The notes below the pieces were generated by a model that ran no database searches, was not told where the DNA came from, and worked only from the letters and a program-made list of their open reading frames with translations. From Clostridia bacterium (lineage in GTDB: Bacteria; Bacillota; Clostridia; TANB77; CAG-465): 55,526 nt of DNA. The translations under genes were made by a program, and so were the position numbers. Of this stretch, positions 8,826 through 41,378 are shown one piece after another (within the stretch, counting starts at the first letter, position 1; the number at the start of each line of letters is the position of its first letter). The stretch spans positions 1 to 55,526 of the forward strand of contig JAFXHJ010000013.1 of NCBI GenBank assembly GCA_017536445.1, in the 5' to 3' direction.

Positions 8826-10316
8826 TTAACCGTTAACTGCCTTAGCAAAGAGCTTAAGCAGAGAGGTTATAGCGAGTCTGTTGTAAGGGGCAAGTGTTGC
8901 GTTAGAAGCTACCCAACTTCTGAAGACTTCCTTAAGCCCATCCTTTACGGTATCTTCGGTAAGTTCAGAATTTGTTTTCATAACTTCAGCGATGATATTT
9001 TCGTAAGTGATTCGCTTAATAGAAGTAGAAGCGAGGAAGGCTTCATTAATAATCGGATTGTCCGTAGGCAAACCAATTGCAGTAAGGAAGTTGCGGGTGT
9101 TCGCAAGAATAGAACCGCCTACTTCAATATCCTTCAAGGCATCGCCGACTACCGTAAGAAGAACATCTTCTGCGGTTTGGCCTTTAGGAAGGGTAGAGGA
9201 AACTACTTCAGAAGAAGCTGCTTTAGGTGTACTTTCACTTGATGCACCTGCAACTTCATCGACAGAAGTAGTGGTATCTTCTTCGGAATCGTCTGTGAAA
9301 ATCATTTCCGGTTCGCTGTCATCGATATCCTCGAAAAGATGCTCAAAGTTTGCACTGTAATCTCTCGCTTTAGGAAGTAAGGTTACCAAGTTGTACAAGA
9401 AGTTTGGCTTAGCCTTACCAACAACAGATTGAAGTCTTTCTGCACGAAGGTAGCGACCTTTGTCAAGAAGCGCTGTGCCGCCGTAGTACTGCTCGTAGTA
9501 GTAATCTACATCAATATCTCTGTGGAAGGTAATGTATACCTTTGCATCGATATCTTCGAGGGCTTTGGTAATCGGAACAACGTATACCATCTTATCTGCG
9601 GTGATATCGAGTACGATACCAAGAACGTGGCTGCCGTTGATTTCGCGGGGAAGATGTGTACCAAAGTAACAGTCGACAACATCGCCGATAGAAAATTCAA
9701 TGATGTTAGGGTCGGTGAACTTGAGGCTCATCTCACGAATCGCGGTCCAGATATGGTTTACGATTTCTTTCTCGCTACTGCACTGCTTGTACATTGCCCA
9801 ATAGGCAGTGCGAAGCAGCTTGTTCATTGCTGCCTCAATAGCAGGATTCTGGAATTCAATCTTCTTGATAATGAGGTCATCTTCACTTTGAGGGCCAACT
9901 TCTTTGGGCGCGGGCGGGAATTCCTCAACAGAAACGATAACAGTGTCATCAGCAACTTCTGATTGGTATTCCTCGGCTGGGACATCGCGTCCTTCAGGAC
10001 ATTCCTCAGAAAACTCTGTAACAGAAACTACAACACGTTCTTCGCTAGGTTCCTGAACAGCTTCTTCTTCGCAAGTTTTTTCTTCGAATACTTCTTCATC
10101 TTCTACGAGATTGTCCACCTCTACACCAAGAAGTACGTAGTACTCGTTGATGAGGTCGATAACGGAGTCGATAAGTTCATCATGAACATTTTCGACGGTT
10201 ACGAAGCCGTTTTCTACATCGAGGTAGATTCTGCAGCGGATTTTTGTAACCGCTTTGAGAAGTGGAGATATGTTTCCATCTTTGGGGCCATTTACTTTAA
10301 ATGTGAGTCTATTCAT
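8826..10316 (-). CDS. Multidomain protein with degenerate MazF/PemK-like barrel
   Basis: This 496-residue protein of unknown function appears paralogous in architecture to the adjacent upstream gene. Residues 1-70 form a small alpha/beta domain and 70-150 an acidic linker with two related motifs (VVVSVTEF and VIVSVEEF). Residues 207-317 look like a MazF/PemK SH3-type barrel (IGDVVDCYFG, HVLGIVLD, YVVPITK, LRAERLQSVVG). Residues 330-380 are Ser/Thr/Glu-rich and 380-496 helical. The arginine that is catalytic in MazF is Leu in my alignment, so this copy is probably inactive. Its start overlaps the stop of the upstream gene by 8 bases, with GGAGA upstream. Base composition is clearly richer in G+C than neighbours (for example 30 of 60 at 9421-9480). 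The barrel assignment is inference. Confidence 0.8.
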   Translation of the reverse strand: MNRLTFKVNGPKDGNISPLLKAVTKIRCRIYLDVENGFVTVENVHDELIDSVIDLINEYYVLLGVEVDNLVEDEEVFEEKTCEEEAVQEPSEERVVVSVTEFSEECPEGRDVPAEEYQSEVADDTVIVSVEEFPPAPKEVGPQSEDDLIIKKIEFQNPAIEAAMNKLLRTAYWAMYKQCSSEKEIVNHIWTAIREMSLKFTDPNIIEFSIGDVVDCYFGTHLPREINGSHVLGIVLDITADKMVYVVPITKALEDIDAKVYITFHRDIDVDYYYEQYYGGTALLDKGRYLRAERLQSVVGKAKPNFLYNLVTLLPKARDYSANFEHLFEDIDDSEPEMIFTDDSEEDTTTSVDEVAGASSESTPKAASSEVVSSTLPKGQTAEDVLLTVVGDALKDIEVGGSILANTRNFLTAIGLPTDNPIINEAFLASTSIKRITYENIIAEVMKTNSELTEDTVKDGLKEVFRSWVASNATLAPYNRLAITSLLKLFAKAVNG

Positions 10317-11805
10317 TAACTAATTCTCCTTTGGTCTTTATTAAGTTGTTGATTAAGCGAATGAAATCGCTAGTGGGAGCTTTTTTCATCTTGAAGTTTT
10401 CCTTAACTCTTGCAACGATTAATCTTTGGATTTCAGAAGGAACAATTTCAGAATGAATCTTATGAATAAGATTTGAAAGTGTTTCCAAATTGTAATACTG
10501 ACATCTAAGACTTGCAAAAATTGCATCGTTCAAAAGGTCTACACCTCGTCTTGTGGAATCAAAACCGAAAATCTCAAGCAGAATCTTTACCTTATCTTTG
10601 TCCGACATAGCATCGCTACAAATGTTATATACATCTGTAAGATTAGCAAACTTTAAGAGCTCGCGTTGAACATCATTAAGTTCCTCAATGCTTTGTACGA
10701 CCGGGACAGGTTTAGGTGGTTCTTGCTTGATTTTAGAGATTTGTTTTTCACGCGGGTCGTAATCCGAGTCCTTCCTAAAAGTACTTTTTTTCTTCTTTTT
10801 AGGAGTAGGAGGTGGAGTAGGTTGAACCTTTGGCACTGCTACGGGTTTTGCAGGCTGAACGACAGGGGCTTTAACAGGTGCTGAAACAGGTTGTTCCTTT
10901 GTGGCTGCAGGTTTTGTTTCCTTAACAGGTGCGATAGCTTCCGAGGCCTCATTTTTTTCTTCAGTCGTAAGACTTAAAGAAGTACAAATGAAACTTGAAA
11001 GTTCGTCCATAAAGGAATCTGTCATTGTACCCAAATACTGCATAAAGCGAGTTTTGTCTACTGTTTGGATTTGTTCTGCAAGAGCAGTACTGTAACCAGA
11101 AGTAAGACCGGGATGAGCCTTGGTATAATCCGCCATTGTTTCTTCTGTGAATTTGAAAGTGAAATGGGTGGGAAGATACTTGGGCTTATACTTTGTGGTG
11201 AAAGGAATTACAATTGTGGTAGGGGAGTATTTATTACCCTTATCGTTTTGGATAACAATAACAGGTCTAATGCCTCCCTGCTCAGAGCCAACTGCATCTC
11301 CTAAATCACAACGATATACTTCGCCGCGTTTTACTCTCCTTACTTTACGAGAAGGTTCGGGAGTTTCGACTATAACTTCATCTGTTTCCGCGTTCGCTGC
11401 TGCAGTACTTTCTGATTCGTCGGTAGTTTCAATCACTTCTTCTGTAGTTTCAATTGTGCCAGATTCTGTGGAAACTTCATTGCGTTTTTCTAAAGCAGGA
11501 GATTCTTCCTTTACAGAAGCTTCTACTACTTGTTTGGGTTTGGTTACTTTAGCTATAAACATTGGTGTGTGTGTAAATCTGTTACTTGAGTAATTGGTAA
11601 AGCAAGTTTTACTAGTATAGTTCTGCACACCAACAACAGTTACCATACTAGACAGGGTGTCTAAAAGTTCATCGGGTAATGTGCCATCAAGGTAAATGGT
11701 GTCTCCATCAATACGTGCTTTGATTTTATACTTTACAAGCACTTTAGAGATTTCGCACACATTTACATCCTTTGAAAGTAATAGTAACAAAATCTGTTCC
11801 TCCAT
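10309..11805 (-). CDS. Multidomain protein with intact MazF/PemK endoribonuclease domain
   Basis: This 498-residue protein has a full MazF domain in its middle (about residues 157-280): VKRGEVYRCDLGDAVGSEQG, IRPVIVIQND, SPTTIVIPFT and ALAEQIQTVDKTR follow Bacillus subtilis MazF closely. The catalytic Arg and Thr of MazF correspond to R180 and T203. Around it lie a small alpha/beta N-terminal domain (1-65), a Thr/Glu-rich linker (95-155), a Pro/Lys-rich linker (285-370) and a helical C-terminal domain (372-498). MazF toxins are normally about 115 residues and paired with MazE; no MazE is seen. The ATG at 11803-11805 has no ribosome binding site. A good site instead precedes an upstream in-frame ATG at 11848-11850 that is followed by TTG and a TAG stop. 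G+C is raised relative to neighbours. Function is inferred, not known. Confidence 0.87.
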   Translation of the reverse strand: MEEQILLLLLSKDVNVCEISKVLVKYKIKARIDGDTIYLDGTLPDELLDTLSSMVTVVGVQNYTSKTCFTNYSSNRFTHTPMFIAKVTKPKQVVEASVKEESPALEKRNEVSTESGTIETTEEVIETTDESESTAAANAETDEVIVETPEPSRKVRRVKRGEVYRCDLGDAVGSEQGGIRPVIVIQNDKGNKYSPTTIVIPFTTKYKPKYLPTHFTFKFTEETMADYTKAHPGLTSGYSTALAEQIQTVDKTRFMQYLGTMTDSFMDELSSFICTSLSLTTEEKNEASEAIAPVKETKPAATKEQPVSAPVKAPVVQPAKPVAVPKVQPTPPPTPKKKKKSTFRKDSDYDPREKQISKIKQEPPKPVPVVQSIEELNDVQRELLKFANLTDVYNICSDAMSDKDKVKILLEIFGFDSTRRGVDLLNDAIFASLRCQYYNLETLSNLIHKIHSEIVPSEIQRLIVARVKENFKMKKAPTSDFIRLINNLIKTKGELVNE

Positions 11806-20221: not shown

Positions 20222-22996
20222 ATGGGAATAATTAAGAAAATATTTGGTTCATACAGCGAAAAAGAAATAAAGAGAATAATGCCACTTGTAGACAAAATCG
20301 AAGCGTTAGAAGAAGACTACAAGAAACTTTCAGATGATGAACTAAGAGCAAAAACAGATGAGTTTAAGAAAAGATTAAATGATGGTGAAACATTAGAAGA
20401 TATATTACCAGAAGCTTTTGCAACTGTTAGAGAAGCTTCAAGTAGAGTGTTAGGAATGAGACACTTTAAGGTGCAATTAATAGGTGGAATTATACTTCAC
20501 CAAGGAAGAATTGCAGAAATGAAAACAGGTGAGGGGAAAACGCTTGTTGTTACACTTCCTGCATACTTAAATGCACTTACTGGAAAAGGTGTTCACATTA
20601 TCACAGTAAACGATTACCTAGCTACATACCATAGTGCGTGGATGGGTAAATTATATAAATTCTTAGGATTAACAGTAGGACTTGTTGTACCTAATATGCC
20701 ACCACATGCTAAACAAGCGGCATATGCAGCAGATATTACATATGGTACAAACAATGAATTTGGTTTTGATTACTTAAGAGATAATATGTGCTTATCTAAA
20801 GATGAGATGGTACAAAGAGAGCTAAACTATGCAGTTGTGGATGAAGTGGATAGTATCCTTATAGATGAAGCTAGAACTCCATTAATCATCTCAGGAATGG
20901 GGAAAGAAGCAACAGATTTATACACAAAAGCAGATAAGTTAGTAAAAAGGATGAAAGCAAAAGTTATTGTAGAATCAGACAACAAAACTTTTGATGAATC
21001 AGATGAAGAATACGATTACGTAATAGATGAAAAAGCAAAAACTACAGCATTAACAGAAAAAGGTACTAAGAAATGTGAAGAGTATTTTGGAATAGAATCT
21101 TTATCTGATGTAGACAATATGGAAATATCTCATACAATAAACCAAGCATTACGTGCTAATGGTATTATGAAAAAAGATACAGACTATATTGAAAAGAATG
21201 GTGAAATATTAATTGTAGATGAATTTACTGGACGTATAATGGAAGGTAGAAGATATAGCGATGGATTACACCAAGCTATTGAAGCTAAAGAGGGGGTTAA
21301 AATTGCAAGAGAATCTAAAACTCTAGCAACAATAACATTCCAAAACTACTTTAGATTATATAATAAGCTTGCTGGTATGACTGGTACTGCTAAAACAGAA
21401 GAAGCAGAGTTCAAAGGTATATTTGGACTAGATGTTGTAGAAATACCAACAAACAAACCAGTAGTAAGAATAGATACAAATGACCAAGTATATAAAAATG
21501 AAATGGGTAAATACAATGCTATAGTAAGAGATGTTAAAGCTTGCTATGAAAAAGGTCAACCGGTTCTAGTTGGTACAGTATCTATAGAGAAATCTGAGTT
21601 AATTAGTAAACTTCTTAAAGCAGAAAGAATACCTCATGAAGTACTTAATGCAAAGCACCATGAAAGAGAAGCAGAAATAGTAGCGCAAGCAGGTAAATTT
21701 AAAGCAGTAACAATTGCTACAAATATGGCTGGTCGTGGTACAGACATACTTCTTGGTGGTAACCCAGAGTTTATGGCTAGACGTGCTCTTGAAAAAAGAG
21801 GAGAAGAACTAGAAAAAGTAGAGTTTGCAATGAGCCCTCTTCCAACAGAAGACGCAGAAATACTAAAACTTAGAGAAGAGTATAAAGCGTTAGAGCAAGA
21901 ATATAAAGCTAAACTTAAAGATGAAAAAGATAAAGTTATAGCTGCAGGTGGTCTTAAAATCATAGGTAGTGAAAGACACGAATCTAGACGTATAGATGAT
22001 CAGTTAAGAGGTCGTGCTGGACGTCAAGGAGACGTGGGTGAATCTACATTCTATATTTCTCTTGAAGATGATCTTATGAGATTATTTGGTACAGATAAAG
22101 TGCAATATTTAGCAAATATGCTAGGCATACCAGACGATATGCCAATAGAACAAAAAATGCTAACAGGTGCTATTGAGACTGCTCAAAAGAGAGTTGAAGG
22201 ACGTAACTATAGCATAAGAAAGAATGTCTTAGAATATGACGATGTTATGAACAAACAACGTAATATAATCTATGATCAAAGAAGACAAATATTAGATAGT
22301 GATAGTATAGAGTTAATTGTTAAAAATATGGCTACAAATAAGGTTTATGAAATTGTAGATATGTATACATCAAATCTATCTAAAAAAGAAGATATAGATA
22401 AAGAAAGTCTTAATACAACTTTACAAAGTATATTTGGTTTTGAATTAGAGGATAATGAAATATCTAAAGATACATTAGAACAAACATTATTAGATAAAGT
22501 GTTTGATGTATATAATGAAAAGAGAAACGTATTCAAAGAACAAGGTATTGAGGAACAATACAATATAATAGAAAAACTTATGATGCTAAGAACAGTAGAT
22601 GAAAAATGGCAAGAACATATGGATAATATGACTCAACTTAAAGAGGGCATCTACTTAAGAGGATATGGCCAAACAAATCCAGTTGAAGCATACAAACAAG
22701 AAAGCTATGATATATTCTCTGAAATGACTCACAGTATCAAAGAAGATACTATAAAAGCAATATTTAGAACAAGTTATAATACAAGCAACACTAAAAACAC
22801 AGTGAATAAATTAGGCCAAAGTATAAACAGAATAGATGATGCGTCTAAAGCAAGTATTAATGTAATGAACACAGGAAATCCAGAAGTGGTACAAAAAAGA
22901 GAACCTGTAAGAGTAGAAAAAACAGTTGGTAGAAACGAACCATGCCCATGTGGAAGTGGTAAGAAATACAAACAATGTTGCGGTAGAAATCAGTAA
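20222..22996 (+). CDS. secA: Preprotein translocase ATPase SecA
   Basis: SecA is the motor that drives secretory proteins through SecYEG. The gene encodes 924 residues, somewhat longer than the Bacillus subtilis protein and close to the proteobacterial length. Walker A is MKTGEGKTLV (~100-109) and the DEAD-type box is DEVDSILIDEARTPLIISG. ILLGGNPE, GSERHESRRIDDQLRGRAGR and QGDVGESTFYISLEDDLMR are conserved. The C-terminus ends in a zinc-binding SEC-C motif (CPCGSGKKYKQCCG) that contacts SecB or ribosomes in other species. AGGAG precedes the ATG. It is followed after 10 bases by a gene with the same tail motif. Confidence 0.97.
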   Translation: MGIIKKIFGSYSEKEIKRIMPLVDKIEALEEDYKKLSDDELRAKTDEFKKRLNDGETLEDILPEAFATVREASSRVLGMRHFKVQLIGGIILHQGRIAEMKTGEGKTLVVTLPAYLNALTGKGVHIITVNDYLATYHSAWMGKLYKFLGLTVGLVVPNMPPHAKQAAYAADITYGTNNEFGFDYLRDNMCLSKDEMVQRELNYAVVDEVDSILIDEARTPLIISGMGKEATDLYTKADKLVKRMKAKVIVESDNKTFDESDEEYDYVIDEKAKTTALTEKGTKKCEEYFGIESLSDVDNMEISHTINQALRANGIMKKDTDYIEKNGEILIVDEFTGRIMEGRRYSDGLHQAIEAKEGVKIARESKTLATITFQNYFRLYNKLAGMTGTAKTEEAEFKGIFGLDVVEIPTNKPVVRIDTNDQVYKNEMGKYNAIVRDVKACYEKGQPVLVGTVSIEKSELISKLLKAERIPHEVLNAKHHEREAEIVAQAGKFKAVTIATNMAGRGTDILLGGNPEFMARRALEKRGEELEKVEFAMSPLPTEDAEILKLREEYKALEQEYKAKLKDEKDKVIAAGGLKIIGSERHESRRIDDQLRGRAGRQGDVGESTFYISLEDDLMRLFGTDKVQYLANMLGIPDDMPIEQKMLTGAIETAQKRVEGRNYSIRKNVLEYDDVMNKQRNIIYDQRRQILDSDSIELIVKNMATNKVYEIVDMYTSNLSKKEDIDKESLNTTLQSIFGFELEDNEISKDTLEQTLLDKVFDVYNEKRNVFKEQGIEEQYNIIEKLMMLRTVDEKWQEHMDNMTQLKEGIYLRGYGQTNPVEAYKQESYDIFSEMTHSIKEDTIKAIFRTSYNTSNTKNTVNKLGQSINRIDDASKASINVMNTGNPEVVQKREPVRVEKTVGRNEPCPCGSGKKYKQCCGRNQ

Positions 22997-23006
22997 AGGG
23001 AACAAT

Positions 23007-24626
23007 ATGAAGAAAAATTATATATACAAAGAGTTAGAAGCAATAACAAGCACATTTCAAAATAAAACGAATGTATTATTAGCAAAAATAGAAATGTTAT
23101 TAGCATATGCATACGATATGTGCAACTCAGCTAACGATAATGAATTGGAGAATATGAGCGAACTAGTAATTGGAGATGCTTTTAGCAAAGCAATTGCATT
23201 TAGGTATGCTTATGAAAAGCAACAAACATATAATAAGAGTTTAGATGATGTAAAAAGTATGTTAGTAAAAGCTATAGGTTCATATATTATGGTGTGTTTT
23301 TATAACTGGTTTTCAAATACTACTAATTTAAACGTAGAATTTGTTCAAAAACAATCTTCTATAGAACTTACAGATTTAGTTTTGAAAGTAGGTAATGAAA
23401 TACTTGATTGTTTTGAAATTACTAGAAAAATGATAGAAAACGATTTGGATTTTTCTAGCGAAGAGTCATTAGATATGAATTTTGAGAATTTTTGCGAAGA
23501 ATTAATAGCTTTTCAAAACAATGTAGATAAATCTATTGAAACGAAAACATACAGATGCATTACAGAAGAAGCTAAAACTATATATTTAGCAAATTATGAG
23601 GAAGTTAAAAATAACTGTGAACTTATTACTGAAGAAATAAAACTAGTCAATAATACAGAAGAAAGTAAGAAATTTGCATCAGTAATAAAAGAATATATTG
23701 CAAGAATATTAGAAGCAGCAAATAATAAAGTATATGGTTCAGACGAGCAAATTGTAATGCGTTCAGAAAAAGATGAAATTGGTCTATTTGAAATTAAATT
23801 ACATATAGATGATAATTCATATGAAAAAGATTTTAGGAATAATAGATTTTCAACAGTTATATCATATAAAACAGCTAACTCATTAAAAGAGGAATACGAA
23901 AAAATCAACAATATTATTGCTGAAATAGAAAATGCAAAGAACATTAATATTTATTTAGATTATGAGATTGAAGGTAATATAAAAAACTATTCATTAAAAC
24001 ATTTTATTAAATATTTGGATAATACTCTAGAAAATAATTTAGTATATAAAGTAAACAATTATAATTTGGATTTGGAAATGGGCGATGTTTATTGCTATAA
24101 CAAGTTTGAAAAAGATTTGTTTAATAATTTTGTAAAAAGAGAATGGTTTGTTACAAATACTAGTAATAAAGAATATGCAATATCAGATTGGGATTTAAGA
24201 AATGTAATATTCAATCTTAAAAATACGCCGGAAATTGTATCGAAGCAAGTAGAAAATCAAATCAAAACATATCTTGATACTATGAGAAACTTACATACAT
24301 TAACTGGATTTGAGAGCGTAATAAAAAAGCTATTGTTAATTCTAAATAATAATAAATTAGAGTTAAATAATTTAACACTTCAATTGTTATCAAAGAGTAC
24401 ATATTCTCAGACGGAGTATTCTTATGATTTTGGAACAGATAACATTGTATATAATATTAGAAGCGCATTTTATGATGGTTATACTAAAGAGGCAAAAGAA
24501 ATTAAAGAAAATAAAATTTCTAAAGTTCAAATGGATAATGAAAATGCAATAACAATTGGCAGAAATGATTTGTGCTCATGTGGAAGCGGTAAGAAATATA
24601 AAAAATGCTGTGGAAAAAACAATTAA
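23007..24626 (+). CDS. SEC-C motif protein of unknown function, downstream of secA
   Basis: This 539-residue, mostly helical, acidic protein has no membrane segment or signal peptide. It ends in a SEC-C zinc motif (CSCGSGKKYKKCCGKNN) almost identical to the SecA tail, including at DNA level. I start it at the ATG at 23007, ten bases after the secA stop with AAAGGGA upstream; frame-compatible upstream codons lie inside secA. The body contains no motif I recognise. Position and shared tail suggest it could act with SecA or compete for the tail's partner; that is inference. A terminator follows. Confidence 0.85.
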   Translation: MKKNYIYKELEAITSTFQNKTNVLLAKIEMLLAYAYDMCNSANDNELENMSELVIGDAFSKAIAFRYAYEKQQTYNKSLDDVKSMLVKAIGSYIMVCFYNWFSNTTNLNVEFVQKQSSIELTDLVLKVGNEILDCFEITRKMIENDLDFSSEESLDMNFENFCEELIAFQNNVDKSIETKTYRCITEEAKTIYLANYEEVKNNCELITEEIKLVNNTEESKKFASVIKEYIARILEAANNKVYGSDEQIVMRSEKDEIGLFEIKLHIDDNSYEKDFRNNRFSTVISYKTANSLKEEYEKINNIIAEIENAKNINIYLDYEIEGNIKNYSLKHFIKYLDNTLENNLVYKVNNYNLDLEMGDVYCYNKFEKDLFNNFVKREWFVTNTSNKEYAISDWDLRNVIFNLKNTPEIVSKQVENQIKTYLDTMRNLHTLTGFESVIKKLLLILNNNKLELNNLTLQLLSKSTYSQTEYSYDFGTDNIVYNIRSAFYDGYTKEAKEIKENKISKVQMDNENAITIGRNDLCSCGSGKKYKKCCGKNN

Positions 24627-25875: not shown

Positions 25876-25910
25876 AAGGAGCAAAATATATAAATTTTGC
25901 TCCTTTTGTT
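25876..25910 (+). terminator. Terminator of the dehydrogenase gene
   Basis: AAGGAGCAAAAT pairs with ATTTTGCTCCTT, followed by T-rich sequence. A TATAAT (25912-25917) for the next gene begins right after it. Confidence 0.85.
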
Positions 25911-25963: not shown

Positions 25964-28057
25964 ATGTCTAAAATAACAGTAGAGTTAGAAAATAATATAG
26001 ATAGTTTTTTAGATTTGCTTTATGTTGTTAACAAAGAAAATAAACTAAATACAATAGAATCTAAATTGGATGCTATAAAAAATATTATAGAAAGCAAAGA
26101 AAAGAATGAATATATTCTAGATTGTAAAAGAATAATAGATGAGAATATTGGCATAGAAAAGCTTTTAACATTTATAGAAGAAATACAACAGGCATCAAAA
26201 GATAAGAACGAAGATGAACTTAATAAACTAAATAATGTACTAGGAGAGTATATAAATAGGATAAAAGATAACAACACTCAGCTCTCTGTAAAAACAAAAT
26301 GGTCGGCTATAGACAACTTATTAAAGAATGAAGAATTAAATCCTAACAACCTTTTAAGGAGTGAACTATTTGATGAGCCAACATCAGATACTTACAAAGC
26401 GATAACTGCTTATGACATATTAAATCCAACTATAATATTTACAGATGAATATGATCCATATTATGCGTTTGAGGGCAGCTATGATATTCTAGAAACTATT
26501 AGTGAGAATCAAATATATACCTCAACGCCAGTATTGGAATTTCTGCTAAATATGCGTGAGGGGCTATTAAAAACAGATAATGTATTAGAAAACTTTAAAT
26601 ATTTATATATAAGAAGACATCGAGTATATTTTGATGAATTAGATTATTACAAAATGGCAGAAAATATGTTCAATATGTCTAAAGAAGAATCAAAAAACAT
26701 GTTCACGGAATACGCGGATGACTTCTTAAAGAATAAAAGATATAAAGAGATATACAAGGGACTAATAATATCTGAAGAAGAGATAGCAGAAATATTTCAT
26801 CAAGACATATCAGATGAACTTAAGCATAACAAAGAATTCATATTGTCTATACTTGAAGACTGTGCGGTAATATATAGTGATTATTTAGAAATAGAAGAAC
26901 AAAATGATAAAGATATAGTCTTAGCTTATATAAATAATGTTAATACAGAGAAGACATCTATAACACTACCAGAATATTTAGATAATAAGCTTTTTGAAGA
27001 TAAAGAATTGGTTATGAAATGTATAAGTAAAAACTATATGGAAGCATATAATAGATCTTCGCTCAAGTTGTTATCAGATAAAGAGATGCTAAAACTTGTC
27101 TTTGAAAAAGCACCACAAAAAATATCAAAAATAGCTTGGGAAGATAATAAGGAATATTTAGAGGCGTTGCAAATAAGAGATGTTAAAGAAGCAGAAAAAA
27201 TCTTAGGAAATGCAGAATATGAAACTGTTGTAAGACCAACATCCTTGCTACATTTTAGTGAAGAGCTAAGAGATAATAAAGAGTTTATGCTTAAATATTT
27301 ATATCTTTATCCTAATGATTACAAATACTTAAGTAAAAGGCTACAAGTAGATATAGATATGGTAATTCTAGCTCTGAATAATGAAATGATACCGTCATGT
27401 GATGCGCATTATTACATATCTTGTCTTGCAGAAGAAGAACTTGCTGATGAAAAGATAATAAGAAAATTATTAGAAACGCCACAACTTGTGAATAACAATA
27501 AATTTTTATCTTTAGTATTAGATTTACCTAATGATGTATTCAAAAAGTATATGCTTAATGCAAAAATTGTAGAAAGCATATTAGCTATCAATAAGCAGGG
27601 ATGGTGCTGGCCACAGATTGAAGATATCGTTTCTAAAGTTTATGAGGTTTTTGAAGGAGTCCCAGATGATGAATTCTTAATAAAAGCATTAATAAAAATG
27701 TTACCAGGAGATTTTTTAATTACAGGAGAAGATTTAAAAGCACAAGGTGGTTTTGAAGGAAGTATTTATGAGAAGATAGAAAAGAACGAAAAGTGCAAGA
27801 AATTATTAAAATCAGTACTATCTAATAAGGAAGATATAGAATATATAATTATAGAAAATCCATGGGTATTTAGATATATAGATGAGAAACTAAAATATGA
27901 TGTTAAGTTTATAGTAGAATGTATGAAAATAAATAGAAATGTATATCAAAATATTCCAAATGAATTATTAGAAAACGAAGAAATAAAAAATGCTAATAAA
28001 GTAAATCCAGAAGACGAATGGTTTGACTTTGAAGTTGATGAAGAGTTACCGTTTTAG
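25964..28057 (+). CDS. DUF4116-repeat protein with SSB-like C-terminal tail (1)
   Basis: This 697-residue, all-helical, acidic protein has recurring units of the DUF4116 type: a D/N-K-E-hydrophobic start, a helix, and a hydrophobic-x-x-L-S-K/D-x-L end. Examples are LKHNKEFILSIL, LFEDKELVMKCI and LRDNKEFMLKYL. It has no signal peptide. The extreme C-terminus reads EWFDFEVDEELPF. An acidic tail ending in Leu-Pro-Phe is the signature by which bacterial single-stranded DNA-binding proteins recruit repair enzymes. The next gene is a larger relative with the same ending. Function unknown. Confidence 0.85.
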   Translation: MSKITVELENNIDSFLDLLYVVNKENKLNTIESKLDAIKNIIESKEKNEYILDCKRIIDENIGIEKLLTFIEEIQQASKDKNEDELNKLNNVLGEYINRIKDNNTQLSVKTKWSAIDNLLKNEELNPNNLLRSELFDEPTSDTYKAITAYDILNPTIIFTDEYDPYYAFEGSYDILETISENQIYTSTPVLEFLLNMREGLLKTDNVLENFKYLYIRRHRVYFDELDYYKMAENMFNMSKEESKNMFTEYADDFLKNKRYKEIYKGLIISEEEIAEIFHQDISDELKHNKEFILSILEDCAVIYSDYLEIEEQNDKDIVLAYINNVNTEKTSITLPEYLDNKLFEDKELVMKCISKNYMEAYNRSSLKLLSDKEMLKLVFEKAPQKISKIAWEDNKEYLEALQIRDVKEAEKILGNAEYETVVRPTSLLHFSEELRDNKEFMLKYLYLYPNDYKYLSKRLQVDIDMVILALNNEMIPSCDAHYYISCLAEEELADEKIIRKLLETPQLVNNNKFLSLVLDLPNDVFKKYMLNAKIVESILAINKQGWCWPQIEDIVSKVYEVFEGVPDDEFLIKALIKMLPGDFLITGEDLKAQGGFEGSIYEKIEKNEKCKKLLKSVLSNKEDIEYIIIENPWVFRYIDEKLKYDVKFIVECMKINRNVYQNIPNELLENEEIKNANKVNPEDEWFDFEVDEELPF

Positions 28058-28081
28058 CTTAATATAAACAGGAGGTGTGTT

Positions 28082-31000
28082 ATGAGTTGGGATGAAACCT
28101 CACGAGATTATAGGGTGTATGGGAAAATATCAGAAAATAAGAAAAATGAATTATTAGACTATTTAGAAGAATTAAATGAAACTTTAGGAGAAGCTTTGGA
28201 AATCGACACAACATATTTACCGGAAGGTGCTATAGTAGAAATAATAGAGGAAGGATTATATAAATATGGTTGCTTTAGAGGAGTAATAAATGATGAACAA
28301 AAATTCATCAAGAATATTCTAAATATAGATAAAGAAAATATTGAAGTTGAAATGACGACTAATGGTTGGTGTGAAACGGATTCTGAAATATATTATTATA
28401 AAGATGGAGAAATAAGACGCACAACAAGACAAACAAGGGAATTTGAAAAAGTTAAAAATAATAGAGAAGAACTCATTAAAAAAATAAAAAAAGATATAAG
28501 TTATTTTGAAAGCTTGTCTAAAGAAGAAAGAAAAGATATAGAGTATCAAAAAGCATCGATGTACGCGGATTACCCAAGTATTACTTTGGAATTTGGAACA
28601 GATGGATATGATAAAATGTATTCTGAAGAATTTGTAAAAAGTGAAGATGCATTAAGACTTGCTTTTAAGTTAGGAACAAGAGATAGGCTTCTTAAGAAAA
28701 GAATATTACCGAATTTTATAAATAATACAAAATTACTTAAAGAACTATTACCATTAAAACCAAGATATATTAGATATATGCCTGATGAATTAAAGAAAGA
28801 CAAAGAGCTTATATTAGAGCTAATAGAAAAAGATAAGACAACAAGAGGCACCAAAATGGATGCCGAGGACATAGATTCTAGTTTATATAAAGATAAAGAT
28901 GTAATGCTTAAATTTTTAGATATATCTACGCATTCATTTGAGTATGCAAGCGAAGAATTAAAGAAAGATTATGATTACTGTAGTAAAGCTGCTAAAAAAG
29001 ATATGTTTAATATGTTTGCTAGTATAAATAATGAAAAGGTACTAAATGAAAATATAGTTAAAGTAATTTCTAGTGTAGGTGTATTATTAAATGATACTAA
29101 ATTACCTAATATAAAAATAACGGATGAATTAAGAAATAATCTAGATATGCATAAAGAATTATTTAAGAATTTTATAAACAGATATGATTGGAGCTTATCT
29201 AAGGAAAAAATAAACAAGAAAGAACAAGAAATAGATAATATAAATAGCATAGAAGAATTGTTTTTGCTTTGCTATAGAAAAAAAGAATTTAACATCTCCG
29301 ATTTATATTATGCTATGTTACCAAATTCATTAATAAAAGATGAAAACTTTATTAAAAATGTACAAGAACTAAATAAAACAAGACGTCCAAAGATGCGCTA
29401 TGGAGGAGAATTTGGAGATAAATTAAAAGTTATATTAAATGATGAACTTTTGCAGGATGAAAACGCTATTGAGCTGCTAAAGAAGAATAAAGTTGAGATT
29501 GTATTTAGGCCGGAATTTATTACAACTAAGGAAGCAGTAGTAGCAATGTTAAAAAATAAAAGCGGAGACAAGTGGAATAAAATTGCACTTAGAAATCTAA
29601 ACGAGAATTTAAGAAATGATTTGGAAGTTCAAAAAGAATACATTTTACAAGATGGAGCTTATTCAATTGAAGAAATAAATCCCGAGCTATTAAAAGATAG
29701 AAAAATAAGAGAAATTGCTTTTGGAAATCTATCTTTATTCTTAGAGGGATTGTTAGATGGAGGTTACGGCTACTTTACGGATGAAGAATATTCATTGGAG
29801 ACATTGAAAGAGCTGCTGTACATAAAGGAATTAACTAATTTTAATTATGAAGATTTGTTAATCTTAGTAAGAAACAATCCGTTAATACTGTTATACACAA
29901 AAGAGAACTATTTTGGCGACAAAAAAATGATATTAGAAGCAGTTAAAAGTAATATGGGTATACTTAGATTTGCAAATAAAGAGCTTCTAAAAGATAAAGA
30001 TATTCTTAATGCTGCTATAGAATCTGAATTTATTAATCATAGTGTATTAAAGTTATTTGATAACACCGTATTTACAGATAAAAACGTAGCACTAAAAATA
30101 ATAAAAAAAGCGCCAGATATGTATGAAAAGCTAAGTGACGAATTAAAACAAGACAAAGAGATAATACAATATGCTAAAGCTTATTTTTATAACTTAAGAT
30201 ATTTTCCAGAAAAATATAAAGAAGACGAAAAATTTGTATTTGGGATCTTAAATAAAAATATTAGTACAGAATGGATAATTCAAAATTTCTATAAAATAGA
30301 ATATAAAGATAATGAAGAAAATAAGATACCATTGTTTTCAGAAAAGTTATTAAACAATAAAGAATTTATGCTTAAACTCTGCAAAATAAATTCAGGTGCA
30401 TATGAAGCTAACGAATTACATATGTTAAGTGGAGATGACCTTATTAAAGATCCAGACTATCTAAAGGAAGTTATAAACATAAGAGCTGAAAGATATAAAA
30501 AGAAAAAAGCAGAATATATACGTCTCCCTAAAGATTGTATGAAAACTATAGGTGAAGATGAAAAGTTATTTTTAGAAGAAATGTATTTTATGTTATTAAA
30601 TCAAGACATGAGAAGAGTATACTTTGCAGAATATATGAATAACAATATAGAGTATTATAAAAAATATCTTGCAAAACAGGAAATAATAAATAGTGAATTG
30701 GACTTGGAAAACTGTAATACATTTGAAGAAATTATAGATAATATAAAAGGTGTAAGATATATATACGCCGGACAAGCATTTCCAGCAAATCTTCTTAAGA
30801 ATGAAAGAGTAGCAAATTATGTTTTATCTAAATACGATAACTATGTAATAGAAAATGGTGAAATTGTAATAAAGTTAAAGAATGAATTAAAATACACACC
30901 AACACCCATAAAAGATACAGGAAACGACGAGAATAACGAAGAAAACGAAACATATCAAAAATATCTAAAGCAAAAAGAGCTTATACTTGCTGGTGAAACG

Positions 31001-31183
31001 GATGTAGATAAAATTGTATTCAAAAGGAGTAAAATTGATTGTGAAGATGATGAATGCGAAGACGAAGAATATGAAGAAAATATATCAGAATACTTTGATG
31101 AAGATTGGAAATCTGCAGATATAGATGAAAATGATGATTGGCGCTCTATAGATATAGATGAGGATGATGAATTGCCATTCTAA
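28082..31183 (+). CDS. DUF4116-repeat protein with SSB-like C-terminal tail (2)
   Basis: This 1033-residue protein is related to the preceding one. Residues 1-150 form a distinct N-terminal domain (VYGKISENKKNELLDYLEEL; TTNGWCETDSEIYYYKDGE) that I do not recognise. Residues about 190-950 hold many helical repeats of the DUF4116 kind (LKKDKELILELI, LYKDKDVMLKFL, LLKDKDILNAAI, LKQDKEIIQYAK). The last 60 residues are strongly acidic and end IDIDEDDELPF, like an SSB tip. AGGAGG lies upstream, 24 bases after the previous stop. DUF4116 proteins are common in some eukaryotes and giant viruses and scattered in bacteria, with no known role. Confidence 0.85.
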   Translation: MSWDETSRDYRVYGKISENKKNELLDYLEELNETLGEALEIDTTYLPEGAIVEIIEEGLYKYGCFRGVINDEQKFIKNILNIDKENIEVEMTTNGWCETDSEIYYYKDGEIRRTTRQTREFEKVKNNREELIKKIKKDISYFESLSKEERKDIEYQKASMYADYPSITLEFGTDGYDKMYSEEFVKSEDALRLAFKLGTRDRLLKKRILPNFINNTKLLKELLPLKPRYIRYMPDELKKDKELILELIEKDKTTRGTKMDAEDIDSSLYKDKDVMLKFLDISTHSFEYASEELKKDYDYCSKAAKKDMFNMFASINNEKVLNENIVKVISSVGVLLNDTKLPNIKITDELRNNLDMHKELFKNFINRYDWSLSKEKINKKEQEIDNINSIEELFLLCYRKKEFNISDLYYAMLPNSLIKDENFIKNVQELNKTRRPKMRYGGEFGDKLKVILNDELLQDENAIELLKKNKVEIVFRPEFITTKEAVVAMLKNKSGDKWNKIALRNLNENLRNDLEVQKEYILQDGAYSIEEINPELLKDRKIREIAFGNLSLFLEGLLDGGYGYFTDEEYSLETLKELLYIKELTNFNYEDLLILVRNNPLILLYTKENYFGDKKMILEAVKSNMGILRFANKELLKDKDILNAAIESEFINHSVLKLFDNTVFTDKNVALKIIKKAPDMYEKLSDELKQDKEIIQYAKAYFYNLRYFPEKYKEDEKFVFGILNKNISTEWIIQNFYKIEYKDNEENKIPLFSEKLLNNKEFMLKLCKINSGAYEANELHMLSGDDLIKDPDYLKEVINIRAERYKKKKAEYIRLPKDCMKTIGEDEKLFLEEMYFMLLNQDMRRVYFAEYMNNNIEYYKKYLAKQEIINSELDLENCNTFEEIIDNIKGVRYIYAGQAFPANLLKNERVANYVLSKYDNYVIENGEIVIKLKNELKYTPTPIKDTGNDENNEENETYQKYLKQKELILAGETDVDKIVFKRSKIDCEDDECEDEEYEENISEYFDEDWKSADIDENDDWRSIDIDEDDELPF

Positions 31184-31196
31184 AAACTAAATATAT

Positions 31197-31238
31197 AAAA
31201 GACATATTGTTAATAGTTAAGACAATATGTCTTTTTAT
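31197..31238 (+). terminator. Terminator of the DUF4116 operon
   Basis: AAAAGACATATTGT (31197-31210) pairs with ACAATATGTCTTTT (31222-31235) and leads into a T run. Confidence 0.85.
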
Positions 31239-31317
31239 GTGTTATATATAAAAACATCTTGCAGTTTTTTTAATTATTAGATAATATAATAGTATTGAAA
31301 ACATATAGGAGGAAGCT

Positions 31318-36602: not shown

Positions 36603-39600
36603 ATGAAAAAACTAATAGTAATACTTTTAGTATTTGTATGTACTATTACTACTGTTTTTGCGGCTGAAGTGGATATCATAAAAGACACAAACTTAAGAAA
36701 CGCATTAATAGATATAGGCATAGATACAAATAATGATGGAAAGATAACAGCCAAAGAAGCAGCAAGTTGCACATGGGGGTTAGCTCTTCATTCAAAAGGA
36801 ATAGAGTCGATAGAAGGACTTGAATATTTTGATAATGTAGATACGCTACACCTAGATAAAAACAACATTTCAAATATCGAGCCTTTATTTGGTATGGATA
36901 GTTTAGCTTATGTATCGTTAGGTGCTAATAGAATAAATGATACTTTTATGAGAGATCATTCATATCATGACAAAGTAGAAGAATTAAGAGCAAAAGATGT
37001 GACTTTATATGTTGGAAATCAACAAGTGGATTGGGATGGTACAAAGATAACATCTAACACACCAAAATACAGAGTGCTATTTGTTATAGCAAAAGAAACA
37101 GACTTTACAGTACCAACAGTAGATGGAGGTACAGTTAGTCAAAAATATACAATGTCAGAAACGGATATTGCATTTTTAAAAGAATGCGCAAGACTTTTTG
37201 AAAGATATACAGAAAAGTTAAGTGATTATGCAATAGATGTTGTAGTAGATGTCTATGTAACAAAGAACAAAATAACAGAACCTAGTGAACCTGGAATTGC
37301 ATATTCAGGAATGTACACATATCCACTTTGGGGAAGTGATATAGAGGAAATTGCAAGTATATATTCACATTATGATTCTACAATAGTAAATGCATATATG
37401 AATGATAAAATGCACGATTCTTCAGGTGTTACATTTTGGAATGCAGAAACTAATAGAGGGGACATATTTATACCATATGATAGCACAATATACCCAATTG
37501 AATTAAATAACGAGTCTTTAGAAACATATTTAGAAGAATATAAAAAAGATATGGTAAATGGCGCAGAAATAGATACTTTTGTTCATGAGTTTATACATGT
37601 ATTAGAAGGATATGGTACAGCAAGTGGACTAAAAATGTGGGAATTCCATGATGCGTTAAATCACGAATTCAAAGAAGTAGACAGTGTTTACGAAGATACT
37701 TTTGATAGAATGGGAATGTATCTAAGAGGCGCTGAACATCCAGAGCATCCTGGTGAAACAGGCATAACACCTTGGATATATGAAAATTCACCAATAAAAG
37801 TAGAAGCTGGCAGTACAGCAAAACCAACAATACCAGAATTAAGTGTAGAATTAGATGTACCAACATCTAAAGTAACATTAAGTTGGACAGCATCAGATTC
37901 AGTAAGCTATTATAGAGTTTATCGCTCTACAAAGCCTACAACAGAATTTGAATTAATAAACAAACTTCCAACGACTACATATTATGAATATCGTACAGAA
38001 GGAACATATTATTATAAAGTAGAACCAGTATTATCTTATCCAGATAAGGTAATATACGGAGATGAGTCAAATGTGGTTAGTGTTACAGTAAGAGCAATGG
38101 TACCACCTCAAGCACCAACTATAGCAATTAAACAAGGTGAAAGAAGAACATTAGAGATAAGTTGGGAAAAAGATGTATATGCATCAGGATATTATTTATA
38201 TAGATCAACAAGTAAAAACGGAACATATACAAAGATAGCAACAATAACAGATGAGAGCAGCTATATAGATAGAAGCTTAACATCAGGAACAACATATTAT
38301 TACAAATTAATAGCATACAATGGATATGGCTGGAGTGAAGAATCTAATATTGTCTCTGAAATAGCAGGTGTATTAGATGCACCGGTATTATCTATAGAAA
38401 AACAAGGAGAAAATACTTTCAAATTAACTTGGAATGCAGTAGAAAATGCTACAAATTATGCAGTACTTAGATCAAGATATAAAGATGGTGAATACGAATG
38501 TTTATGTAGTCATACAACGTTAGAATATATTGAACAAGATGTACCAAAAGGCACAAGATATTATTATAAAGTTCAAGCAAGTAACGCTAACGAATTATAT
38601 GATCCGAGTGAGTATTCTAATATTGTTACCGAGGCAGTCCCTGGAGATAAAGTTGAAGGAAAACCATTAGTAATAATATTAAGAGATGGTCCAAACTCAG
38701 TTAAACTTATGTGGAACTGGATTGTAGGTGCAGAAGGATATGTTGTAAAAAGATCAACATCAGAAAATGGAACATATGTAAACATAGGAACAGCTACTCA
38801 ACAACAACTTGTTACATTTATAGATGAAGGATTAAAAACAGGAACAACATATTACTATAAAGTACACGCATATAACGAATGGGGTGTAAGTGAAGATTCG
38901 GATGTTGTATATAGGTTAATACAACCATTACCTGCTCCAAATGCATACATAGAAGTGTATGAAGAAAATAACTTTAGAGTATATTGGGATACGGCAGATG
39001 GTACAGCAGGATATAAAGTATATAGATCAACAAGTAAAAATGGAACATATAAATTAGTAGCGACAACACCTGATACAGTTCAAGAATATATAGAAGAAGC
39101 GGTTCCAAAAGGAACTACATATTATTATAAAGTGGTAGCATATACAGACAAAGAAACAAGTGCATATTCAAATATAGTATCAGCTTCTGTAGAAAGAGAT
39201 AAAATACCAGGAGCACCAGCGGTAGAGATTACTAAAGGAAATAATAATTCTTTAGTAGTATCTTGGGAAGCGGTAGACTTTACAGATGGATACTATGTGT
39301 ATTATGCAACAAGTAAAACAGGCAAATATACAAAACTTGCTACAGTAGAAGGAACAAGTTATACACATAAGAAATTAACTTATGGTAAAACATATTATTA
39401 TAAAGTGGTAGCATACAATGCATACGAAAAAACAGGTTACTCAAATGTGGTATCTATGAAAGTAGTACCAAATGAGGTAACAGGATTAAAACTAGTACCA
39501 TCAGGTTCAACATCTGTTAAACTTTCTTGGAATAAATTATCCAATACAGGTTATGCAATATATTATTCTACAGATGGAGAAACTTGGACATATATAACAA

Positions 39601-41378
39601 GAACTACAAGCAATAGTTATACACACAGTGGACTAAAATCTAACAAAGACTATTATTACAGAGTTAGAGCATATCAAACGGTAAGTGGAACAAAACACTA
39701 TGGTGCATATTCTGATGTGGTAAGTGTTAAAACCGCACCTGGAAAGACAAAATTAACAGTAGGAACAACAACAAACAAAACATTGAATATAACACTTACT
39801 GAAGTAAGTGGCGCAGATGTATATGAGATATACAGAGCTACAAGTAAATCTGGAACATACACTAAAATAGTTACTTTAGATGAACCGGGCACATATAACG
39901 ATAAAGATGTAAAAGTAGGAAAAACATATTATTACAAAGTAAGAGTAAAAAATGAAGCGGGAATAGCAGGATCATATACATCAATAGTTTCTAAAACAGT
40001 AATTCCTGCAAAAGTAGAAAATGTTCAAATGACAAGTGCGAACTCATCTACAATAAAAATTAAATGGGATCAAACAGAAGCATCAGGCTATGAAGTATAT
40101 AGATCTACGAATAATAAAAAATGGACTAAAATCAAAACAATAACTAAAGGAACAACGTTAACTAATTCAGAAAGCGGACTAAGTTCAAATAAAACATATT
40201 ATTATAAGGTTAGAGCGTATAAAACTGTAGGAAGAACAAAAATATACGGATCATATTCTACAGTAATTGCTGCTAAAACAGCTCCGGCAAAGCCTAAGTT
40301 AACAGTGAGCACAACATCTAATAAAACATTAAAAATAAGCGTTGGAGCTACAGGTGGAGCAACGATTTATGAAATATATAGATCAACAAGTAAGAATGGA
40401 ACATATACATTAATATCTACTTCAAATGTAGCAGGAACTTATATAGACGAAGATGTAATAGTTGGTAAAACATATTATTATAAAGCAAGAGCTATAAATA
40501 ACCAAAATATGAAGGGATCATACACATCGGTTGTATCAAAAACGGTTATTCCTGCCAAAGTAGCAAATGTACAAATGACAACTGCTAACACATCTAGTAT
40601 TAAAATTTCTTGGGATGAAACAGAAGCAACTGGTTATGAAGTATATATGTCTACAAATAATAAAAGATGGACAAAAGTAAAAACAATAACTTCAGGCTCA
40701 ACATTAAGTTATACAAACAAGAAATTAAGCGCTAACAAGACATATTATTATAAGGTTAGAGCATATAAGACAGTAGGTAAAACTAAGGTGTATGGTTCAT
40801 ATTCTAATGTACTAAAAACAAAAACAGCGCCAAAGGCACCATCATTATCAATATCTAATAGAGACTATATTTCTTTAAATATAAAAGTTGCTGAAACAAA
40901 AGGCGCAACTAAATATGAGATTTATAGAGCAACAGAGAAAAACGGTGAATATGAATTAATAGCAACATTAAATAAAGCAGGAACATATGTAGATACAGAA
41001 TTATTAACAGCAACTACATATTATTATAAAGTAAGAGCTATTAATTCAAATGGAAGTGCAAGTTCATATAGCAGTATAATAAGTAAAAAAGTTGTACCAA
41101 ATGCTCCTAAGTTAACACTTTCTACAACAAGTAAAAAAGTAAAAGTTGTAGTAGGAGAGGTTAATGGCGCTATAGGTTATGAAATATATAGAGCAACATC
41201 TAAATCAGGAAAATACAGCAAAATAGGAGAACTAACAGATTTAGAAGCAGCATTAGAATTAATGAATTCTACAAAGAAAGGTAGATATTATTACTATAAA
41301 GTAAGATGTTATACATTAGTAGAAGGAATAAAGGTATATAGCAGTTATTCTAGTGTAAAGTATATTAAATCAAAATAA
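36603..41378 (+). CDS. Secreted zincin-like protein with LRR segment and 13 Fn3 repeats
   Basis: This 1591-residue exported protein has a signal peptide at residues 1-21 (AXA-type end VFAAEV). Residues 22-150 have an EF-hand-like DTNNDGKIT and a short leucine-rich segment (IEGLEYF, LHLDKNNISNIEPL). Residues ~155-405 form a putative metalloprotease domain with HEFIH (H328, E329, H332) after DTFV; I cannot place the third zinc ligand. From ~410 to the end lie 13 fibronectin type III-like repeats, each with a T-Y-Y-Y-K-V strand. Repeats 8/9 and 10/11 are near duplicates as two-domain units. No LPxTG or transmembrane anchor is seen at the C-terminus. GGGGGAAAGGG precedes the ATG. Probably it acts at the cell surface or outside; substrate unknown. 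Confidence 0.88.
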   Translation: MKKLIVILLVFVCTITTVFAAEVDIIKDTNLRNALIDIGIDTNNDGKITAKEAASCTWGLALHSKGIESIEGLEYFDNVDTLHLDKNNISNIEPLFGMDSLAYVSLGANRINDTFMRDHSYHDKVEELRAKDVTLYVGNQQVDWDGTKITSNTPKYRVLFVIAKETDFTVPTVDGGTVSQKYTMSETDIAFLKECARLFERYTEKLSDYAIDVVVDVYVTKNKITEPSEPGIAYSGMYTYPLWGSDIEEIASIYSHYDSTIVNAYMNDKMHDSSGVTFWNAETNRGDIFIPYDSTIYPIELNNESLETYLEEYKKDMVNGAEIDTFVHEFIHVLEGYGTASGLKMWEFHDALNHEFKEVDSVYEDTFDRMGMYLRGAEHPEHPGETGITPWIYENSPIKVEAGSTAKPTIPELSVELDVPTSKVTLSWTASDSVSYYRVYRSTKPTTEFELINKLPTTTYYEYRTEGTYYYKVEPVLSYPDKVIYGDESNVVSVTVRAMVPPQAPTIAIKQGERRTLEISWEKDVYASGYYLYRSTSKNGTYTKIATITDESSYIDRSLTSGTTYYYKLIAYNGYGWSEESNIVSEIAGVLDAPVLSIEKQGENTFKLTWNAVENATNYAVLRSRYKDGEYECLCSHTTLEYIEQDVPKGTRYYYKVQASNANELYDPSEYSNIVTEAVPGDKVEGKPLVIILRDGPNSVKLMWNWIVGAEGYVVKRSTSENGTYVNIGTATQQQLVTFIDEGLKTGTTYYYKVHAYNEWGVSEDSDVVYRLIQPLPAPNAYIEVYEENNFRVYWDTADGTAGYKVYRSTSKNGTYKLVATTPDTVQEYIEEAVPKGTTYYYKVVAYTDKETSAYSNIVSASVERDKIPGAPAVEITKGNNNSLVVSWEAVDFTDGYYVYYATSKTGKYTKLATVEGTSYTHKKLTYGKTYYYKVVAYNAYEKTGYSNVVSMKVVPNEVTGLKLVPSGSTSVKLSWNKLSNTGYAIYYSTDGETWTYITRTTSNSYTHSGLKSNKDYYYRVRAYQTVSGTKHYGAYSDVVSVKTAPGKTKLTVGTTTNKTLNITLTEVSGADVYEIYRATSKSGTYTKIVTLDEPGTYNDKDVKVGKTYYYKVRVKNEAGIAGSYTSIVSKTVIPAKVENVQMTSANSSTIKIKWDQTEASGYEVYRSTNNKKWTKIKTITKGTTLTNSESGLSSNKTYYYKVRAYKTVGRTKIYGSYSTVIAAKTAPAKPKLTVSTTSNKTLKISVGATGGATIYEIYRSTSKNGTYTLISTSNVAGTYIDEDVIVGKTYYYKARAINNQNMKGSYTSVVSKTVIPAKVANVQMTTANTSSIKISWDETEATGYEVYMSTNNKRWTKVKTITSGSTLSYTNKKLSANKTYYYKVRAYKTVGKTKVYGSYSNVLKTKTAPKAPSLSISNRDYISLNIKVAETKGATKYEIYRATEKNGEYELIATLNKAGTYVDTELLTATTYYYKVRAINSNGSASSYSSIISKKVVPNAPKLTLSTTSKKVKVVVGEVNGAIGYEIYRATSKSGKYSKIGELTDLEAALELMNSTKKGRYYYYKVRCYTLVEGIKVYSSYSSVKYIKSK
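37820..41370 (+). repeat. Thirteen tandem Fn3-coding repeats
   Basis: Each unit is about 85-100 codons and carries a TATTATTATAAAGT-like segment encoding YYYKV. The later units show the greatest mutual similarity, indicating recent duplication within the gene. Confidence 0.85.

Follow-up and report, generated by a model that had tools for sequence, protein, structure and literature searches.

The window is the whole stretch of DNA that was analysed, 55,526 nucleotides from a Clostridia bacterium (contig JAFXHJ010000013.1). It contains two adjacent genes, here called P1 and P2, that encode DUF4116-repeat proteins with an SSB-like C-terminal tip. The features of the locus, in window positions, are as follows.

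25876..25905, forward strand: terminator-like hairpin that separates P1 from the dehydrogenase gene upstream (z -4.8)
25964..28057, forward strand: P1, DUF4116-repeat protein of 697 aa with an SSB-like C-terminal tip (intact ORF, Pfam), with a AAGGTGAGGG-type ribosome site ahead of its start
26801..27967, forward strand: DUF4116 repeats of P1 (26801-26863, 26999-27106, 27236-27346 and 27824-27967)
28004..28054, forward strand: acidic C-terminal tail of P1, NPEDEWFDFEVDEELPF
28037-28054, forward strand: P1 tip DEELPF, followed by a TAG stop
28070..28077, forward strand: strong ribosome site of P2, AGGAGGTG, within the 24-base gap between P1 and P2
28082..31183, forward strand: P2, DUF4116-repeat protein of 1033 aa with an SSB-like C-terminal tip (intact ORF, Pfam)
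28739..30406, forward strand: DUF4116 repeats of P2 (28739-28837, 28892-29002, 29576-29689, 29855-29986, 30077-30175 and 30329-30406)
31103..31168, forward strand: tandem 11-residue duplication in the acidic tail of P2, DWKSADIDEND / DWRSIDIDEDD
31157..31180, forward strand: P2 tip DEDDELPF, followed by a TAA stop
31190..31243, forward strand: terminator-like hairpin 3' of P2 (z -6.5)

P1 and P2 likely form one co-transcribed two-gene unit, because the gap between them is short, the ribosome site of P2 is strong and terminator-like hairpins flank the pair. An earlier sequence-only reading had placed an acidic stretch closing in ELPF at 28037-28054 and at 31157-31180, and both were confirmed to the base. 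P1 ends in ...FEVDEELPF and P2 in ...DIDEDDELPF (C-terminal sequence DDWRSIDIDEDDELPF). The ELPF of P2 is reached from the second copy of the duplication only (DWRSIDIDEDD).

The same reading had called both proteins DUF4116 proteins, and Pfam agrees. PF13475 matched P1 with an E value of 1.2e-18 (66.8 bits) and P2 with 2.1e-28 (98 bits), both above the family cut-off (24.9 bits). DUF4116 was the only family found in Pfam scans of either protein. An OB-fold ssDNA-binding domain was absent from both in these scans, and the PF00436 search of the genome misses both. The bodies of P1 and P2 are weakly similar, in the repeats only (BLASTP, best pairwise E 4e-4). Single-sequence structure models of the two are mostly helical with very low confidence (pLDDT 41 and 38). 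The C-terminal residues appear without helix in these models, again at a confidence that makes them weak evidence. An alpha-solenoid has been modelled for DUF4116 (PMC8078820).

Next to P1 and P2, the genes tested encode SecA, a SEC-C protein, an enzyme like 2,4-diaminopentanoate dehydrogenase, and a cation ATPase. Comparison of the neighbouring genes indicates metabolic and secretion surroundings and no defence island. PADLOC defence models matched neither P1 nor P2, and no phage genes flank the pair. In a search for an empty insertion site, the flanks by the dehydrogenase gene were not syntenic within the family. At 20222-24626, SecA precedes a protein of 566 aa whose C-terminus is a SEC-C motif of its own. 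On the reverse strand at 10309-11805, a protein of 498 aa contains a PemK/MazF domain internally, and the local G+C content, about 38%, is above the rest of the window. The protein encoded at 36603-41378 has 1591 aa and numerous fibronectin type III domains.

An acidic tip ending in (L/I)PF is a feature of bacterial SSB (PF00436), and it is present on P1 and P2. More than 14 enzymes have a conserved pocket for the SSB tip, in which an arginine contacts the carboxylate of the terminal Phe and a basic rim contacts the acidic residues (PMC5872125). The host genome contained 1,307,204 bases (1.31 Mb) in 21 contigs and was 100% complete by tool estimate. It encodes one canonical SSB, which ends in DFITVDETEELPF (...TVDETEELPF). 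The last five residues, EELPF, are identical in this SSB and P1, and P2 has DELPF. Two further PF00436 matches were retrieved from the host genome: an open frame without the tip that ends in FEEYKKED, and one sub-threshold match. The tip is kept in nearly all SSBs of the host's taxonomic family; therefore, these cells must possess receptors that fit it. The SSB tails of the family comprise 13 distinct variants of (G/S)(D/E)F(I/V)T(V/I)(D/E)xx(D/E)(D/E)LPF.

The pattern GAN-NTN-CCN-TTY-stop, which encodes [DE][FLIMV]PF at a C-terminus, occurs 5 times in the whole host genome. Four of these are the ends of SSB, P1, P2 and a prophage protein, and the fifth lies antisense to a ferredoxin gene. Only four real host genes thus end in [DE][hydrophobic]PF. 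The prophage carrier is an ssDNA/replication protein of the NGO0469 replication family and ends in VPEDDLPF. Other genomes of the family mostly have one tip match, their SSB. From composition, about 0.0005 gene ends of the form [DE]3-LPF are expected per genome, or 0.08 per about 222,000 genes (153 genomes, assuming 1,450 genes per genome). P1 and P2 thus have tips that are significant beyond chance. Their codons differ from each other (GAAGAGTTACCGTTT and GATGAATTGCCATTC) and from those of the SSB. Fresh copying of the tail between P1 and P2 is ruled out by the different tip codons and the diverged bodies. For the same two reasons, the tip was either kept by selection or acquired twice. The proposal in the sequence-only reading that the tips have the SSB form is thus supported: they match the SSB of the same genome, whose end is DETEELPF, they are not random, and two diverged proteins of one transcription unit keep them with different codons.

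The tips might instead be general acidic C-termini, with the likeness to SSB arising by chance or from a turnover signal. Asp and Glu are abundant in the C-termini of both proteins. Upstream of the acidic tip, the likeness to family SSB tails is weak for P1 (p about 0.13-0.32) and marginal for P2 (p about 0.03-0.04). Extended SSB-tail homology beyond the tip is thus not significant for P1, in favour of a general acidic end, and is marginal for P2. Against this explanation, two adjacent genes have [DE]3+LPF ends where so few are expected, the EELPF is exactly that of the host SSB, and the remaining DUF4116 proteins compared end without the tip. We regard a general acidic end as very improbable. 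P1 and P2 are likely SSB-tip mimics, judging from their terminal residues. The mimicry claim is confined to the tip because of the weak upstream match.

A C-terminus could be read in 76 DUF4116-like ORFs, which we compared; 30 of them have 300 aa or more. The tip occurs on P1 and P2 alone (2/76). The tip is a feature of the P1-P2 pair and not of the DUF4116 family. The tail as a family trait was rejected, since 74/76 lack it, including others in the host genome. The earlier description of SSB-like tails on DUF4116 proteins therefore holds for P1 and P2 and fails as a family property. The sequence-only reading had named homologues with similar bodies and no tail as evidence against it. The result is ambiguous: the tail is missing from the 74 other proteins, and no orthologue resembling P1 or P2 in its body is among them.

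Searches for orthologues of P1 and P2 gave none in genomes of the genus, the family and a class sample, in genome contigs, or among viral contigs, phages and plasmids. The searches were peptide scans for the genome and viral collections, tblastn for phages and plasmids, and class-wide genome searches. Neither a P1 copy nor a further tip-bearing DUF4116 protein was present in the sister species or other sampled family members. DUF4116 itself was found in 278/385 sampled genomes of the host's order and was nearly missing from the rest of the phylum (3/398 genomes, the window's own genome aside). A small DUF4116 protein of 170-190 aa occurs in many genomes of the order.

The host genome encodes two more DUF4116 proteins, both without the tip. 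One is a HIRAN-DUF4116 protein, and the other is an integrase-like/ankyrin/DUF4116 fusion. They lie in a row with a radical-SAM/SPASM gene, near DUF6339 (L034:4027-9561, contig C8 of the same genome). The HIRAN and integrase-like fusions fit a DNA-related setting. They also favour a housekeeping repair scaffold, in which P1 and P2 would bring SSB partners to damage for host repair and have no conflict role. SSB-tip docking chemistry would serve such a scaffold equally well. The lack of a P1 copy or another tip-bearing DUF4116 protein in the sister species and other sampled family members would be unusual for core repair, and we consider this account unlikely.

Other tip carriers in the order were surveyed with GAN-GAN-HTN-CCN-TTY-stop across 153 genomes. 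A single match in a genome was taken as its SSB, not all of these being read, and the extra matches were read; the resulting counts are lower bounds and are small. About 20 matches were in ORFs of <45 aa and are noise. Beyond SSBs, the carriers are mostly phage replication proteins: DUF669-like, NGO0469, small ssb-like and DUF927 primase/helicase proteins. The small ssb-like label and most DUF669-like labels come from reading the sequences, as Pfam gave one marginal DUF669 match only. The DUF927 primase/helicase tip is MEDLPF. Proteins of this phage type with the MEDLPF end were retrieved at L210:137-2044 (reverse strand) and also at L184 and L191. The MEDLPF DUF927-like protein adjoins a DUF669-like protein with DDLPF, which gives two tips in one phage replication module.

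P1 and P2 could thus be leftover or domesticated genes of a phage or mobile element, with tips that load host replication enzymes for the element. The predominance of phage replication proteins among non-SSB carriers is in line with this origin, as are the tipped protein of the host prophage and a DUF4116 protein encoded by a Fusobacterium phage. The Fusobacterium phage protein lacks the tip, however, and the flanks of P1 and P2 contain no phage genes. Viral homologues of P1 and P2 were searched for and none was found. An origin of this kind has a low probability in our estimate.

Few carriers in the order are neither phage proteins nor SSBs. The first is a TIGR02391/Hypoth_Ymh HEPN protein that ends in KIEEDELPF (L157:7240-8370, G031:C1). 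Its gene has a type II restriction-modification pair on one side and a (GIY-YIG/)helicase plus PARIS (AriA, AriB) on the other. A full-length homologue from an Alkalihalophilus pseudofirmus plasmid is 29% identical, lies by type I restriction genes and ends in EYVDLPF. A homologue in a P2-like Escherichia phage has no tip. The tip is therefore not universal in the HEPN family, with DLPF in the Alkalihalophilus homologue and none in that of the phage.

The second is a PD-T4-6-like protein kinase that ends in ALEDDDLPF (L228:6617-7753, G062:C10). Type I restriction, UvrD and DUF262-like genes share its island. The HEPN protein and the kinase are thus both encoded inside defence islands. The third is a small, very acidic protein that ends in NDEDLPF and is 70% identical across two genera (L229:4137-4544 and L217:2442-2858). 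In one of these genera, a TOTE primase-helicase is encoded 1.4 kb away. A protein with the variant end DDDDFPF lies between CRISPR-Cas genes (by sequence reading) and DUF2397/DUF2398, which we take to be Wadjet components.

We think it rather probable, by analogy with SSB, that P1 and P2 are accessory alpha-solenoids that dock through an SSB-tip mimic into the SSB-tail pockets of genome-maintenance enzymes. They would be co-transcribed DUF4116 proteins, each ending in a mimic of the host SSB tip. We infer docking because of the known chemistry of the SSB tip. The tip would most likely dock into the basic SSB pocket of RecO, PriA, RecG, DnaG or others, of host or phage. Docking would carry the solenoids to sites of replication or repair, or would allow them to compete with SSB there. 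Decoy or diversion may be one of several options for their function. Speculatively, their purpose is anti-phage or anti-mobile-element conflict and not housekeeping repair. This role draws on analogy with the tipped HEPN, kinase, small acidic and DDDDFPF proteins and on the patchy distribution, because the neighbours of P1 and P2 are no defence island.

More tentatively, and with some doubt, the tip could be a portable docking module that the order and its relatives graft onto proteins of anti-phage defence or conflict whose folds are unrelated. DUF4116 solenoids, HEPN, the PD-T4-6-like kinase and the small acidic protein would then be parked on replication and repair enzymes. Docking through the SSB tip is central to genome maintenance in bacteria, a hub at which tipped host proteins other than SSB would compete or ride. 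If the tip recurs on defence proteins, it would be a simple route for them to active replication forks. For DUF4116, which has no known function, the tips of P1 and P2 would offer an initial clue to mechanism. The sequence-only reading had considered such mimicry new for DUF4116, and among the titles, abstracts and term matches that we searched there was no prior account of DUF4116 with an SSB tip, of SSB-tip mimics or of SSB-tipped defence proteins.

Four known groups resemble P1 and P2 in part. The SSB C-terminus (DDDIPF in E. coli) shares the acidic run and (L/I)PF at the extreme C-terminus, but P1 and P2 contain DUF4116 repeats in place of an OB fold or a match to an ssDNA-binding family. 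Other DUF4116 proteins (PF13475) share multiple repeats over the cut-off, whereas 74/76 members compared lack the tip. The phage DUF669, NGO0469 and DUF927 proteins come from the same order and, like P1 and P2, end in an acidic LPF tip without being the host SSB. P1 and P2 match none of these families and lie outside a phage region. The TIGR02391/Hypoth_Ymh HEPN protein, encoded beside restriction-modification genes, resembles P1 and P2 as an accessory protein that is not from a phage and has LPF at its C-terminus. It differs from them in its HEPN fold and in having an Escherichia phage homologue without the tip.
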